Of a stretch of 64,000 nt of DNA, positions 6,526-19,382 are shown in pieces. The notes beneath the pieces were generated by a model that saw only the letters and a program-made list of their open reading frames with translations, had not been told where the DNA came from and did no database searches. The position numbers were made by a program, and so were the translations under genes. Each line of letters starts with the position of its first letter. Within the stretch, counting starts at the first letter, position 1. The stretch lies in assembly GCF_016107285.1 (NCBI RefSeq), contig NZ_RCVQ01000006.1, forward strand, positions 1-64,000. Reading direction: 5' to 3'. The DNA comes from Roseomonas sp. KE0001. GTDB lineage: Bacteria; Pseudomonadota; Alphaproteobacteria; Acetobacterales; Acetobacteraceae.

Positions 6526-6579
6526 TTGCCATGCGGACACAACCGCTAGGCATCATACCCTCCCCAAAGGGAACCCTTG

Positions 6580-7938
6580 ATGCTTGCTGACCCTGCCGCC
6601 CACAGCCTGCATGTCGTGCTGGACGTCTCCAGGCTGCTGGGCTGCGGCCGCAAGCGCACCCCTTCGGGAATCGATCGGGTCGAGCTGGCCTATGCCCGCC
6701 ACTGGCTCGGCCTGCCGCCCGGCGCCTGCACCTTCGTCGGCCAGGAACTGCAGGGCGGCTTCGCGGAACTGCCCCGGACCCTCGTCGCCGACCTCGTGGC
6801 GGCGCTCACCGAGGCCTGGGACAGCGGCCTCTCCAACAGCCCCGCGCTGCGCCGCGCCGCCCGCATCGGCACCCTGGCGCGCGGCCGGCTGCTGCTCGGC
6901 TTCGGCCGCGCCGACCTCGCCCGCCTCCTCGGCAGCGGCCGGCGGCTCGCCTTCCTGCTGGTCTCGCACCAGGCGCTCGACCGCGCCGGCCCGATCGAGT
7001 CGCTGCGCCAGGGCGGCTGCGCCTTCGTGCCGCTGATCCACGACCTGATCCCGGTCTCGCACCCCGAATACGCCCGGCCCGGCCAGGCGGAGAAGCACCT
7101 GCGGCGCATCGGCGTCACCGCCAGCCTGGCCGATGGCGTGATCGTCAACTCCGCCGCCACGGCCGAGGCGCTGGCCCCCCACCTGGCCGGGCGGCCCCTG
7201 CCGCCGCCGGTGCTCATCGCGCCGCTCGGCATCGACACGCCGCGCCATGCCGGGCCCGCCTCCGGCGCGGACCCCTACTTCGTCGTCCTCGGCACCATCG
7301 AGCCGCGCAAGAACCACCTCCTGCTGCTGCACCTGTGGCGCGAGCTGGCGCGCCTCGGCAGCGCCACGCCGCGCCTGCTGATCATCGGCAAGCGTGGCTG
7401 GGAGAACGAGAACGTCGTCGACATCCTGGAGCGCTGCACGGCGCTGAACGGCATCGTGCAGGAGATCGGCCAGCTCCCGGACCGCAAGGTCTCCGAGCTG
7501 CTGCTGGGGGCCCGCGCGCTGCTCTTCCCCTCCTTCGCCGAGGGCTATGGCCTGCCGCTGGCCGAGGCCCTGGCCGCCGGCGTGCCCAGCATCTGCTCCG
7601 ACCTGCCGGCGCTGCGCGAGGTCGGCGCCGAGGTGCCGGACTATCTCGACCCGCTGGACGGCAGCGCCTGGCGCCGGGCCGTCCTCGACTACGCGCGGCC
7701 GGACAGCCCCGCCCGCGCCGCCCAGCTCGCCCGCCTGCAGGGCTGGCGGGCGCCCGAGTGGCAGGACCACTTCGCCATGGTGGAGCGCCTGCTGGAGACC
7801 GTGACCGAACACCGCCTGGGCGCGCCGCAGGGCCGCCGCGCCGGCCGGCGCCTCCCCGCGCTGCGTCCCGCCGTCGCCCGCCCCGCCTGGTCCGCCACGC
7901 GGCCCGGGATGGTGGCCCGCGACGAGGCGGTGCCGTGA
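6580..7938 (+). CDS. Glycosyltransferase family 4-type protein
   Basis: A 452-residue GT-B glycosyltransferase. The C-terminal half holds the GT4 signatures GTIEPRKNH (near residue 233), LLIIGKRGWEN, and the nucleotide-sugar motif FPSFAEGYGLPLAEALAAG near residue 318. The N-terminal acceptor domain starts with HVVLDVSRLLG and contains TPSGIDRVE. No signal peptide or membrane segment is seen, so it probably acts at the cytoplasmic face of the inner membrane. It is first in the cluster, 28 bases before the polyketide synthase, so it may glycosylate the lipid made downstream or build the attached polysaccharide. Donor and acceptor are unknown. The ATG at 6580 was preferred to the adjoining TTG. 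Confidence 0.85.
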   Translation: MLADPAAHSLHVVLDVSRLLGCGRKRTPSGIDRVELAYARHWLGLPPGACTFVGQELQGGFAELPRTLVADLVAALTEAWDSGLSNSPALRRAARIGTLARGRLLLGFGRADLARLLGSGRRLAFLLVSHQALDRAGPIESLRQGGCAFVPLIHDLIPVSHPEYARPGQAEKHLRRIGVTASLADGVIVNSAATAEALAPHLAGRPLPPPVLIAPLGIDTPRHAGPASGADPYFVVLGTIEPRKNHLLLLHLWRELARLGSATPRLLIIGKRGWENENVVDILERCTALNGIVQEIGQLPDRKVSELLLGARALLFPSFAEGYGLPLAEALAAGVPSICSDLPALREVGAEVPDYLDPLDGSAWRRAVLDYARPDSPARAAQLARLQGWRAPEWQDHFAMVERLLETVTEHRLGAPQGRRAGRRLPALRPAVARPAWSATRPGMVARDEAVP

Positions 7939-7966
7939 GCCTCCGCCGCCGCGCGGAACCCTCCTC

Positions 7967-15403
<7,437 letters not shown>

Positions 15404-15469
15404 GGTCTCTCTCCCGCAGGGGCGGCACCCCGTGGCGGAGGCGTCCATGAGGACCAGGGAAGCACGCGC

Positions 15470-16804
15470 ATGACCGTCGGACTGTCCGCCACCGCCCGCA
15501 TGGCGCTGCTCGCCCGCCTCTCGCGCCGCCGCGACAGCGCCGCCCCGCGCGCCGATGCCGGCAGCGCGCGCGACTTCACGACGCTCCCCGGCATGCGCGA
15601 CTTCGCCCTGCTGAAGACCGCCATCGAATCGCTCGACCTGCGCCAGCCCTTCTTCCGCGCGCATGACGGGCTGGCCGGGGCGCACAGCCGCATCGGCGGG
15701 CGCGAAGTGGTGAACTTCGCCAGCTACAACTATCTCGGCCTGAACGACGATCCGCGCGTGCAGGCGGCGGCGAAGGCGGCGATCGAGCGCTACGGCGTCT
15801 CGCCCTCCGGCTCGCGCATCACCTCGGGCGAGCGCGACCTGCATCTCGCGCTGGAAGCGGCGCTGGCCGAATGGCACGGCGCCGAGGCGGCGCTGACCTT
15901 CGTCTCCGGCCATGCCACCAACGTCACCACCATCGGCCACCTGATGGGCCCGCGCGACATCGTGGTGCATGACGCCGCCATCCACAATTCCTGCACCGAG
16001 GGCATCCGCCTCTCGGGCGCGCGCCGCATCCCCTTCGCGCACAACGACATGGCAGCGGCCGAGCGCGAGATGGCGGCGGCGCGGCGCGGCGCCCAGGGGG
16101 CCTCGACCCGCGCCCTGTTGCTGGTCGAGGGCCATTACAGCATGGATGGCGACGCGCCGGATCTGGCGCGCTGCGTCGGCATCGCCCGCAGGCACGACGC
16201 CTGGCTGATGGTGGACGAGGCGCACAGTCTCGGCGTGCTCGGCGCCACCGGGCGCGGCGTGGCCGAGGCGCAGGGTGTCGACCCGGCCGGCGTCGATCTC
16301 TGGATGGGCACGCTGTCCAAGACCCTGTCGGCCTGCGGCGGCTATATCGCCGCGCGGGCCGACGTGATCGACTGGCTGCGCCACACCGCGCCGGGCTCGG
16401 TCTATTCCGTCGGGCTGGCGCCGCCGCTGGCCGCCGCCGCGCTGGAAGCGCTGCGCATCCTGCGCGCCGAGCCGGAGCGCGTGGCGCGGCTGCAGGCCAA
16501 CGGCCGGGCGCTCCGCGAGCGCATCCGGGCGCGCGGCTTCGACACCGGAGCGGGCCAGGGCGGGGCCATCCTGCCGGTGGTCCTCGGCTCCTCGGTGCGC
16601 ACGGTGAAGGTGGCGGCGGCGCTGCTGGAGCGCGGCGTCGCGGTGCAGACGGTGATCTTCCCGGCCGTGCCGGAGCAGTCGGCACGGCTGCGCTTCTTCC
16701 TCTCCGCCGACCACAGCGAGGCCGATCTCGACCACGCCGCCACCGCGCTGGCCGAGGCCGCCGCCGGCATCGGCCGGGTGGAATCCCTGCCGGGCCTGGC
16801 ATGA
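15470..16804 (+). CDS. Alpha-oxoamine synthase / BioF-KBL family (RkpG-like)
   Basis: A 444-residue PLP-dependent enzyme of the family that condenses an amino acid with an acyl thioester, losing CO2. Relatives make 8-amino-7-oxononanoate, 2-amino-3-ketobutyrate and the sphingolipid base. Diagnostic features: FASYNYLGL near residue 84, GSRITSG, MVDEAHSLGVLG (cofactor aspartate and histidine) and the PLP lysine Lys284 in TLSKTLSACGGY. A 60-residue N-terminal extension precedes the core. It lies 66 bases after the polyketide synthase and probably off-loads its ACP-bound chain as an amino ketone. A biotin role is unlikely, as no other bio genes are present. The rhizobial counterpart would be RkpG. 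Confidence 0.88.
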   Translation: MTVGLSATARMALLARLSRRRDSAAPRADAGSARDFTTLPGMRDFALLKTAIESLDLRQPFFRAHDGLAGAHSRIGGREVVNFASYNYLGLNDDPRVQAAAKAAIERYGVSPSGSRITSGERDLHLALEAALAEWHGAEAALTFVSGHATNVTTIGHLMGPRDIVVHDAAIHNSCTEGIRLSGARRIPFAHNDMAAAEREMAAARRGAQGASTRALLLVEGHYSMDGDAPDLARCVGIARRHDAWLMVDEAHSLGVLGATGRGVAEAQGVDPAGVDLWMGTLSKTLSACGGYIAARADVIDWLRHTAPGSVYSVGLAPPLAAAALEALRILRAEPERVARLQANGRALRERIRARGFDTGAGQGGAILPVVLGSSVRTVKVAAALLERGVAVQTVIFPAVPEQSARLRFFLSADHSEADLDHAATALAEAAAGIGRVESLPGLA

Positions 16805-18015
16805 CCCGGCAGGGCGGCGCCTTCCCGGCCGGGCCGGTCGGCCTCAGCGCCGCCGGGACGGAGATCCGCCGCGTCACCACCCCGGCCGAGGCCGAGCTCT
16901 TCATCCGCCTGCCGGCGCTGCTGGGCGGCGCCGCCGCCGGCTGGTCGGTGCCGCTCTTCGCCGACACAAGGCGCATCTTCGACGCTGGCTTCAACACCGC
17001 GCTCGCCGAATGGACGGTGCCGCGCTGGCTGGCCTGGCGCGACGGCCGCCCGGTGGGCCGCATCGCCGCCGCCTGGCCGCGCGACGGCGCCGCGACGGCG
17101 GGCCTCGGCAGCTTCGGCTTCCTGGCGCTGGAGCGCGACCCGGCGGTGCTGGCCGCGTTGCTCGACACGGCCGCCGGCTGGCTGGCGGAGCGGGGCGCGA
17201 CGCGCCTGCGGGGCCCCTTCTCCTTCACGATCAACCACGAGATCGGCCTGCTGGTCGAGGGTGGCGCGCTGCCCATGCCGCGCATGCCGCGCAATCCCGC
17301 CTGGCTGCCGCCGATGCTCGACGCGCTCGGCCTGGCCCGGGAGAAGGACGTGCTGGCCTGCACCCTCGACACCGCCACCGAGTCGCACCGCGCGGCCTCC
17401 GCTCCGCGCCTCGCCGCCTGGTCCGGGCGCGGCGAGCTGCGCATCCGGCCGCTGCGGCGCCGGGGCCTCGGGCGCGAGGTCGCGCTGATCCGCGACATGT
17501 TCAACGACGCCTGGGCGGAGAACTGGGGCGCGCTGCCGGTCTCCGCCGCCGAGGCCGGCACCATGAAGCGGCTGCTGCGCCCCATGCTGCTGGCCGGCGG
17601 CGGCTATTTCGCCGAATGGCGCGGCGAGCCGATCGGGCTCGCCATGCTGCTGCCGAATGTCGAGGCCGCCACCGCGCGGCTCGATGGCCGGCTGCTGCCG
17701 CTGGGCTGGGCGCGGATGCTGCGCGCCCTGATCGATGGCCAGGGCAGCGCACGGCTGCCGATGTTCGGCATCCGCCGCGCCTGGCGTGGCACCGAGGCCG
17801 GGCGCATGGCCGCCGGCGCACTGCTGGCGGCCGCGATCGGCCATGCCGAGCGCCGCGGCTGGCGGCGGGTCGAGATCTCCTGGATCCTGGAGGACCATCG
17901 CGGCATGCTGCGGCTGATGGACAGCCTCCCCGCGCCCGTCACGGGCCGATGGCGGATCTGGGGCGCTCCACTGCCCCTGGCTGCCAATCGGGCCGTCATT
18001 GCATCCACAGATTGA
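16801..18015 (+). CDS. Unknown protein with GNAT-like fold in the PKS/capsule cluster
   Basis: A 404-residue cytoplasmic protein without membrane segments. Its start overlaps the end of the alpha-oxoamine synthase gene by four bases (ATGA), indicating translational coupling. The motif FNDAWAENWG near residue 233 and the later GGYFAEWRGEPIGLAM and GWRRVEISWILEDH stretches resemble a family of long acetyltransferase-like proteins. Such proteins are sometimes labelled N-acetyltransferase or, wrongly, dATP pyrophosphohydrolase. The N-terminal third (WLAWRDGRPVGRIAA) also looks GNAT-like, so a tandem GNAT architecture is plausible. Its position suggests it N-acylates or otherwise modifies the amino ketone made by the two preceding enzymes. 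No experimental function is known to me. Confidence 0.7.
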   Translation: MTRQGGAFPAGPVGLSAAGTEIRRVTTPAEAELFIRLPALLGGAAAGWSVPLFADTRRIFDAGFNTALAEWTVPRWLAWRDGRPVGRIAAAWPRDGAATAGLGSFGFLALERDPAVLAALLDTAAGWLAERGATRLRGPFSFTINHEIGLLVEGGALPMPRMPRNPAWLPPMLDALGLAREKDVLACTLDTATESHRAASAPRLAAWSGRGELRIRPLRRRGLGREVALIRDMFNDAWAENWGALPVSAAEAGTMKRLLRPMLLAGGGYFAEWRGEPIGLAMLLPNVEAATARLDGRLLPLGWARMLRALIDGQGSARLPMFGIRRAWRGTEAGRMAAGALLAAAIGHAERRGWRRVEISWILEDHRGMLRLMDSLPAPVTGRWRIWGAPLPLAANRAVIASTD

Positions 18016-18050
18016 CAGGGTTCGCGCCACCCGCTTTCAAGGGTGCAACG

Positions 18051-19382
18051 ATGTCGGCCGCGGCCCCTCCTCCTCCACCCAAGCGCTTCCTGTTCCTGCA
18101 GGGGCCGATCTCGCCCTTCTTCGATGAGGTCGGCGCCGGGCTGCGGGCGCTGGGCCATCAGGTCCATCGCATCAACCTCAATCTCGGCGACCGCTTCTTC
18201 TGGCGCGGCCCCGGCGCCGTCGATTTCCGCGGCCGTGCCGCCGAATGGCCGGACTTCATCGCCGCCTTCCTGGACCGGCACGGCATCACCGACATGGTGC
18301 TGATCGGCGAGCAGCGGCCCTACAACAAGGTCGCCATCGCCGCCGCCGAGGCGCGCGGCATCCGCGTGGCGGTGACCGATTTCGGCTATATCCGCCCCGA
18401 CTGGATCGTCCTGGAGCGCGACGGCATGAACGCCGCCAGCCGCTTCACCCGCGACCCGGAGGCCATCGTGCGCGAGGGCGCGAAGCTGCCGCCGCCCGAC
18501 CTCGCCGTGCGCCATCATGACGACTTCCGCAGCCAGGCGGCCTGGGACATGCTCTACCATCTGGCCAGCCTGATGCCCTGGCCCTTCCCGCATTACGACA
18601 GCCACCAGCTGCACCACCCGATCCCGGTCTATCTCGGCGTCGCCTGGCGGCTGCTGCGGCGCGGCGCCAGCAACCGGCGGGCGGACGCCATCCTGAAGCG
18701 CCTGACCGGGCGCGGGCCGCTCTTCCTGATGGCGATGCAGATGGAGACCGACTTCTCCATCCGCGCCTATTCCCGGTATCGCGACCTCGACACCGTGCTG
18801 CACGAGGTGGCCGCCAGCTTCGCGGCCCATGCGCCGGCGGACGCGCACCTGCTGGTGAAGGTGCATCCGCTTGATCCGGGCATGAAGAACTGGAAGCGGC
18901 GCAGCGCCCGCATCGCCCGGCAATACGGATTGCAGGAGCGGATGCATTATCTCGGCGGCGGCAACCTCGGCGCCATCGTGGAGCAGGTGCAGGGCGTGGT
19001 GACGGTGAACAGCACGGTGGGCCTGCGCGCCATCATCGACCACACGCCGACCTTCGCGCTTGGCGAGGCGATCTACCGCATCCCCGGCCTGGTCTTCTCC
19101 GGCCCGCTCGACCGCTTCTGGACCGAGGCGAAGCCGCCCGAGATCCCGCTGCGCGAGGGCTTCCTGCGCTGCATCGCGCACAGCCTGCACATCCGCGGCG
19201 TCTACTACAACCGGCCCGGCCTGGATGTCGCCGTGCGCGGAGCGGTGCACCGGCTGCACCACGGGCGGCTCAACCAGCCGGTGCCGGAGCTGATGGCGCC
19301 GGACGAGGATCCCGGCACGGCCGCGCCGGGCTGGTACATCCGGCCGGAGCGGCAGCAGGCCTATCCTCCCCAGCCGGCCTGA
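18051..19382 (+). CDS. KpsS-like capsular polysaccharide biosynthesis protein (RkpJ-like)
   Basis: A 443-residue cytoplasmic protein of the capsule synthesis family that includes KpsS/LipB and the C-terminal half of KpsC. It starts LFLQGPISPFFDEVG, as KpsS proteins do (a GP-x-PFF-x-x-L/V-G pattern). It continues with NLGDRFFWRG, LLVKVHPLDPG near residue 268, and the closing signature VVTVNSTVGLRAI near residue 318. In group 2 capsules, KpsS and KpsC add the Kdo linker to the lipid end of the polymer. Here it is preceded by lipid-building enzymes rather than ABC exporter genes. The ATG at 18051 has AAGGG upstream; the reading frame is open further upstream without meaning. Confidence 0.85.
   Translation: MSAAAPPPPPKRFLFLQGPISPFFDEVGAGLRALGHQVHRINLNLGDRFFWRGPGAVDFRGRAAEWPDFIAAFLDRHGITDMVLIGEQRPYNKVAIAAAEARGIRVAVTDFGYIRPDWIVLERDGMNAASRFTRDPEAIVREGAKLPPPDLAVRHHDDFRSQAAWDMLYHLASLMPWPFPHYDSHQLHHPIPVYLGVAWRLLRRGASNRRADAILKRLTGRGPLFLMAMQMETDFSIRAYSRYRDLDTVLHEVAASFAAHAPADAHLLVKVHPLDPGMKNWKRRSARIARQYGLQERMHYLGGGNLGAIVEQVQGVVTVNSTVGLRAIIDHTPTFALGEAIYRIPGLVFSGPLDRFWTEAKPPEIPLREGFLRCIAHSLHIRGVYYNRPGLDVAVRGAVHRLHHGRLNQPVPELMAPDEDPGTAAPGWYIRPERQQAYPPQPA

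Follow-up and report, generated by a model that had tools for sequence, protein, structure and literature searches.

A polyketide route to bacterial sphingoid bases has been described in Pseudomonas fluorescens MYb115. According to passages of PMC12134224, the iterative type I polyketide synthase (PKS) PfSgaA and the alpha-oxoamine synthase (AONS) PfSgaB, the latter with an almost exclusive preference for L-serine, make C24-C28 sphinganines in this organism; a short-chain dehydrogenase/reductase (SDR) is proposed to reduce the ketone, the pathway yields free sphinganines and phosphoglycerol sphingolipids, and 6,101 homologous PKS-AONS pairs were counted, mostly in Burkholderia. In Caulobacter, genes of the YghO/CerS family are required for dihydroceramide (passages of PMC9386255 and PMC11324152). 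Such PKS-sphinganine pairs and ceramide synthases (CerS) are already known, as are capsule loci of the rkp/wcb type and capsules exported by ATP-binding cassette (ABC) transporters. Here we analyse a five-gene cluster at positions 6577-19382 (+ strand) of a 64,000-nucleotide stretch of DNA from Roseomonas sp. KE0001 (the window; contig NZ_RCVQ01000006.1, here C43). Our best reading is that a PKS-made sphingoid base, N-acylated or N-formylated, anchors an ABC-exported capsule that is probably linked through 3-deoxy-D-manno-octulosonic acid (Kdo). We hold it rather probable that these genes form one half of a capsule pathway dependent on an ABC transporter, the half that builds the lipid, and that the other half is encoded on a second contig of this genome, C12.

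All five genes are complete and lie on the plus strand. An earlier note on this DNA, made from the letters alone, had given them in the order described here and had remarked on a PKS without thioesterase; Pfam matches and motif positions agree with it on both counts. The first gene (6577-7938, with a TTG at 6577 and an ATG at 6580) encodes a GT4-type glycosyltransferase (PF00534, 59.7 bits), which is 49.6% identical to a glycosyltransferase from an Acidisoma capsule-type locus and whose gene likewise opens the cluster in those relatives that were examined as long loci. It is followed by a single-module reducing type I PKS (7967-15403), in which Pfam delimits ketosynthase (8021-9271), acyltransferase (9623-10591), dehydratase (10721-11545), enoylreductase (13319-14212), ketoreductase (14273-14809) and acyl carrier protein (ACP; 15107-15301) domains, and the same domain scan matched no thioesterase. 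The third gene (15470-16804) encodes an AONS resembling RkpG and serine palmitoyltransferase (SPT) (PF00155, 176.9 bits), with a lysine, K284, that is invariant across 12 aligned proteins. Next come a tandem-GNAT protein (16801-18015) and a KpsS/RkpJ-like protein (18051-19382; PF05159, 228.7 bits), a probable Kdo transferase that scores 196.2 bits against the NCBIfam KpsS model, under its cut-off of 600, and for which a sequence search matched no solved structure. The intergenic gaps are, in order, 28, 66, -4 and 35 bp, the negative value being a 4-bp overlap of the AONS and GNAT genes.

The resemblance to the rhizobial rkp-1 region proposed in the earlier note held up in a comparison with a Sinorhizobium meliloti locus (L088) that fits rkp-1, the rkp gene names being assigned here by gene order. 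The window PKS is 36% identical to RkpA (residues 19-1399), the AONS 47% to RkpG and the KpsS-like protein 44% to RkpJ, while the AONS is 35% identical to the SPT of E. coli. A quick tree of 27 rows, with a long-branch warning on its 5-aminolevulinate synthase row, grouped the window AONS with the S. meliloti protein in a 20-member clade of PKS-linked AONS, apart from four canonical SPTs. The AONS of two Pseudomonas relatives (L090 and L166) fall into the same clade; the SgaB sequence itself was not in the comparison. Apart from the window AONS, the source genome gave a single AONS match, a 5-aminolevulinate synthase (505 bits against a cut-off of 338.55), and no match to a further SPT- or CerS-like protein was found there.

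The earlier note had taken KpsC and an ABC exporter to be lacking. Both are in fact encoded on C12, where one stretch holds genes for a glycosyltransferase, a nitroreductase-family protein, a 663-residue frame, KpsE-, KpsT-, KpsM- and KpsC-like proteins and an SDR. The KpsE-like protein reaches 249.5 bits against TIGR01010, the KpsM-like protein 141.9 bits against NF050053, the KpsT-like protein is an ABC ATPase, and the KpsC-like protein matches the solved KpsC structure 6mgd by sequence (E 3.4e-58); the KpsS-, KpsC-, KpsM-, KpsT- and KpsE-like proteins of this genome all score under the NCBIfam cut-offs. Of the 47 matches that the S. meliloti SDR has in this genome, the SDR beside KpsC ranks first (33%). 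The CMP-Kdo synthetase gene kdsB is also present (170.7 bits, cut-off 155.2), a gene that lipopolysaccharide needs too. Since the export stretch lies about 180 kb inside C12 and the lipid cluster lies on C43, the two halves are well apart. The 663-residue frame (L176:4035-6026) has no Pfam or NCBIfam match, and its homologues lie near KpsE in L269, L271, L272 and L275.

Relatives were examined in those 27 genomes of a 120-genome draw whose AONS is full-length and at least 58% identical, a selection made after the match list had been seen; nine of the 36 AONS genomes fall outside this set, and G076 was left out because its AONS match is partial (61% over 308 residues). The earlier note had named homologous clusters paired with unrelated pathways as the observation that would speak against it. 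The loci examined did not refute the note in this way: in four relatives (G104, G003, G102 and G106) the run of glycosyltransferase, PKS, AONS and GNAT or formyltransferase genes continues via KpsS, SDR and KpsC to KpsM, KpsT and KpsE, except that G102 has no SDR match and that KpsS adjoins KpsC in G104; the 663-residue protein follows in three of these four stretches. In a fifth relative (G015) KpsC lies within a few kb, about 4 kb after KpsS, and in G028 and G005 about 12 and 25 kb separate the halves, which share a contig. Elsewhere the two halves lie at a great distance from each other or the draft assembly has them on separate contigs, or no KpsC turned up; 20-kb stretches around the lipid loci of G021 and G063 held no export genes.

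A KpsC-like protein is present in 25 of the 27 genomes, compared with 19 of the 93 remaining genomes of the draw; these co-occurrence counts and the alternation counts given below, with their Fisher and hypergeometric values, ignore relatedness among the genomes, and the KpsC proteins of at least 50% were picked by hand from the KpsC match list. KpsS is a neighbour of the AONS in 20 genomes of the set and of KpsC, not the AONS, in six; in G089 it was not seen. Its position beside KpsC could be read in 24 genomes, and G003 and G102 have the same KpsS at both places, since their halves adjoin. The AONS contig of G047 ends near the gene. Among 24 KpsC loci with short flanks, 12 showed an SDR and 17 an ABC gene.

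For the fourth gene of the cluster, the earlier note had seen a GNAT-like fold in the product, and a fold search with a structure model confirms this as a tandem GNAT fold; the product can now be described more sharply as a relative of ceramide synthases whose place is taken by a formyltransferase in some related genomes. The protein is 31% identical to YghO of E. coli BL21 (E 2.7e-54, residues 21-387 of 404), and by this homology it belongs to the YghO/CerS family and is a probable N-acyltransferase. In Pseudoroseomonas aestuarii, P. deserti, Rhodovarius lipocyclicus, Crenalkalicoccus roseus and a Paracraurococcus metagenome-assembled genome, the slot between AONS and KpsS is filled by a formyltransferase homologue. 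PF00551 matches the proteins of P. aestuarii (74.9 bits) and R. lipocyclicus (72.6 bits), and the former carries the motif NVHPSLLP and then an aspartate.

The two genes replace each other without overlap. The window-type GNAT was found in 12 of the 27 genomes and the formyltransferase in the other 15, so that no genome has both and none has neither, and the gene adjoins the AONS in 25 (GNAT in 11 of 12, formyltransferase in 14 of 15, the latter being on another contig in G089). G076 has a formyltransferase about 5 kb away and neither a window-type GNAT nor a KpsC match; adding it gives 12 GNAT and 16 formyltransferase genomes of 28, with KpsC in 25 of 28. A 397-genome draw, which includes genomes of the first draw, gave 25 GNAT and 80 formyltransferase genomes and none with both, against 5.0 expected. 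Both states occur within each of four genera, and the 14 genomes of the source genus divide into four with GNAT, nine with formyltransferase and one (G601) with neither at the cut-offs used. This genus also includes G537, whose formyltransferase is identical to the P. aestuarii one, which makes the source organism probably a Pseudoroseomonas. An AONS tree of 50 rows (47 different), in which 12 of 44 inner branches are open forks, requires at least eight GNAT/formyltransferase changes among the 36 rows of the family. The AONS is present in 18 of the 19 formyltransferase genomes of the 120-genome draw. In the one genome where the GNAT lies elsewhere, G011 (which shares a contig with Acetobacteraceae bacterium H6797), it is separated from the glycosyltransferase, PKS and AONS genes by about 920 kb (C1 45308-46606 and C1 967203-968330), and the formyltransferase search gave nothing in this genome at the cut-off applied.

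Outside the family, 70 PKS-AONS loci were examined. A formyltransferase lies beside the AONS in Marinobacterium rhizophilum, Thiothrix eikelboomii, a Cocleimonas and Methylobacterium variabile (on the opposite strand), and in Hansschlegelia quercus its neighbour is a YghO-like protein; the other loci have neither gene beside the AONS, at least five of them because the contig ends. Formyltransferase homologues stand directly after a PKS-linked AONS in several bacterial families (L097:11385-12233 of P. aestuarii, L101:11203-11988, L109:11188-11820, L110:11346-12122 and L142:11206-11880), pointing to a possible N-formyl sphingoid lipid.

The alternation is best explained if both enzymes meet one need, the capping of an amine; the AONS product is the amine at hand. 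The repeated exchange of the two enzymes suggests that some amine has to be capped, in the simplest case the one on the sphingoid base. A capsule borne on a PKS-made ceramide-like lipid, with an N-cap that is interchangeable between a fatty acyl group in some species (set by the CerS relative) and a formyl group in their sister species (set by the unrelated formyltransferase) and that switched at least eight times in one family, is a reading we put forward tentatively, its chances being a little short of even.

From the gene content, homologies, synteny, co-occurrence, GNAT fold and alternation that we observed, we infer a chemistry of five steps. By analogy with PfSgaA and PfSgaB, the PKS would build a long acyl chain on its own ACP, and the AONS would condense this chain with an amino acid, probably L-serine, to release a 3-keto sphingoid base; release by the AONS would also account for the missing thioesterase. 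The SDR beside KpsC on C12, judging by its gene position, may reduce the ketone. The CerS-family tandem-GNAT protein, judging by its family and slot, may then N-acylate the amine to give a dihydroceramide-like lipid. KpsS and KpsC are enzymes of Kdo transfer, and the family assignments suggest that the KpsS- and KpsC-like proteins would add Kdo, that the GT4 enzyme would extend the chain and that KpsMTE would export the polymer.

Variation between N-acetyl and N-formyl groups is common on sugars, and the GNAT-like protein, like the formyltransferase of the relatives, might modify an amino sugar of the capsule, the anchor being an unacylated sphinganine as made by PfSgaAB. The near-equal scores of the formyltransferase against the ArnA (97.7 bits) and methionyl-tRNA formyltransferase (93.7 bits) models favour this explanation, and glucosamine N-acetyltransferases among the top fold matches of the GNAT model leave some room for a sugar target. 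We nevertheless consider it unlikely: the GNAT gene stands directly behind the AONS gene with a 4-bp overlap, its family is tied to ceramide synthesis (YghO homology; passages of PMC9386255), and most of the distant GNAT relatives examined lie near genes for SPT, fatty acid hydroxylase, acyl-AMP ligase or LptF/G.

The earlier note had proposed that a sphingoid-like amino ketone is acylated and becomes the lipid moiety either of a capsule or of a free glycolipid. Homology, synteny and passages of PMC12134224 lend the capsule part indirect support, and the free glycolipid has become the less likely part because KpsC and an exporter were found on C12; the argument that no exporter meant a free glycolipid was demoted on the same ground. 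A free (glyco)ceramide membrane lipid made independently of the capsule would still suit a cluster that itself contains no exporter, in a genome where no other SPT- or CerS-like match was found, so that this is perhaps its sole sphingolipid route, and free sphinganines and phosphoglycerol sphingolipids are among the PfSgaAB products (passages of PMC12134224). Contiguity with KpsC, KpsM, KpsT and KpsE in four genomes, the KpsC co-occurrence in 25 of 27 and the residence of KpsS in one half or the other make it a quite improbable account. PKS and AONS also form pairs in secondary metabolism; a secondary-metabolite cluster unrelated to surface polymers is, however, hard to reconcile with the KpsS-type protein, the capsule synteny and the grouping of the AONS with those of rkp-type loci, and we give it almost no weight.

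Within the window, the cluster is flanked by a 2-hydroxyacid dehydrogenase gene just upstream and a cytochrome oxidase cluster downstream, which we do not count as its parts because the neighbours differ in most relatives. Codon composition of the cluster fits genes. A promoter/terminator scan found no promoter-like sites and one terminator-like site, inside the AONS gene, that is not above chance, and the direct repeats in the cluster are short GC-rich partial matches only. Between the dehydratase and enoylreductase domains the PKS carries VLEVG (residues 1397-1401, window 12155-12169), which resembles an S-adenosylmethionine-binding motif and is perhaps the remnant of a methyltransferase domain, with no Pfam match. 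The sole tRNA gene found in the window is a tRNA-Ala (GGC) at 164-239.

Three features appear to be new, as far as literature searches go: a gene of the CerS family stands in an operon for a PKS-made capsule lipid, it alternates with a formyltransferase, and the genes for the lipid lie apart from those for export. No title tying PKS-derived sphingoids, CerS or formyltransferase to a capsule anchor was found in a search that took in passages of PMC12220298 and left most subscription journals outside its scope; no paper on N-formyl sphingoid lipids came up in searches on formyltransferases with ceramides or sphinganines and capsules, none of which used the name of such a lipid; and the literature examined, primary rkp-1 papers aside, gave no lipid structure for an rkp-1-type PKS and AONS product. 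Joining rkp/wcb capsule genes, PKS-derived sphinganines and bacterial ceramide synthases yields a concrete, testable capsule anchor, and the alternation predicts N-formyl sphingoid lipids. The cluster also illustrates that a capsule pathway can appear incomplete where its lipid and export halves lie apart.

PfSgaAB of P. fluorescens MYb115 shares with the window an iterative type I PKS, an AONS and an SDR in the pathway (passages of PMC12134224), and in the main text of that paper 'acyltransferase', 'capsul', 'rkp' and 'wcb' each occur 0 times. A plasmid locus of Pseudomonas sp. TMW 2.1634 (pL21564-1; L090:5335-27131) holds genes for PKS, AONS, a dioxygenase, a capsule protein, GNAT, a lipoteichoic acid (LTA) synthase family protein, SDR, two further capsule proteins, KpsF and kdsB; its SDR is the fifth gene past the AONS, an arrangement that the PfSgaB and PfSgaC locus tags also suggest for MYb115. 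By analogy, the MYb115 sphinganine cluster may be a capsule locus as well, and the LTA-synthase-like protein may add its phosphoglycerol. In Caballeronia insecticola plasmid p2 (L089:4276-14188), a gene annotated as UDP-3-O-acyl N-acetylglycosamine deacetylase lies between PKS and AONS. The sponge swf cluster also has a single-module reducing PKS, but it carries a reductase/sulphotransferase and often a radical SAM protein, and the operon as described in passages of PMC3908369 has neither AONS nor KpsS, on which ground an swf identity was rejected; the five proteins of the cluster carry no SwfB-type domain.

The GNAT-like protein is homologous across most of its length to the CerS/Aca proteins (Caulobacter CC_1154, E. 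coli YghO), but its neighbours are PKS, AONS and KpsS, where the E. coli YghO locus has SPT, ACP, acyl-AMP ligase and epimerase. Canonical SPT, AcpR, AasR and CerR genes are not among the cluster neighbours; AcpR, AasR and CerR were not searched genome-wide. Two capsule-type loci (L092:11777-25929 of an Acidisoma plasmid and L049:4822-13708 of G010) combine a CerS-family protein, an SDR, an AONS and PF05159 proteins with no PKS within the 29 kb examined, the Acidisoma locus also holding a sterol-desaturase-family protein and an ABC exporter; they are possibly loci of a ceramide-anchored capsule fed by ordinary acyl chains. In the actinobacterium Streptomyces sp. NBC_01001, a plasmid (L093:10781-15307) has AONS, CerS-family protein, epimerase and condensation-domain protein genes in a row, a ceramide-like cluster.

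The E. coli group 2 capsule has a phosphatidylglycerol-type anchor. The source genome shares its KpsS-like protein (in the window) and its KpsC-, KpsM-, KpsT- and KpsE-like proteins (on C12), but seems to make a dedicated anchor lipid. Also close are rkp-1 and the wcb locus of Burkholderia, where PKS likewise adjoins AONS, an RkpJ/KpsS-like protein is present and the genome holds capsule export genes. An LTA-synthase-family protein from Acidisoma, used as a query, matched at the G104 and G059 loci and found no match in the source genome, a search with no positive control. Compared with rkp-1 and wcb, the window cluster has no RkpH-like SDR among its five genes and apparently no LTA-synthase-family gene in the RkpI slot, and it has in addition a CerS-family protein and a GT4 glycosyltransferase, with its export half on a separate contig.

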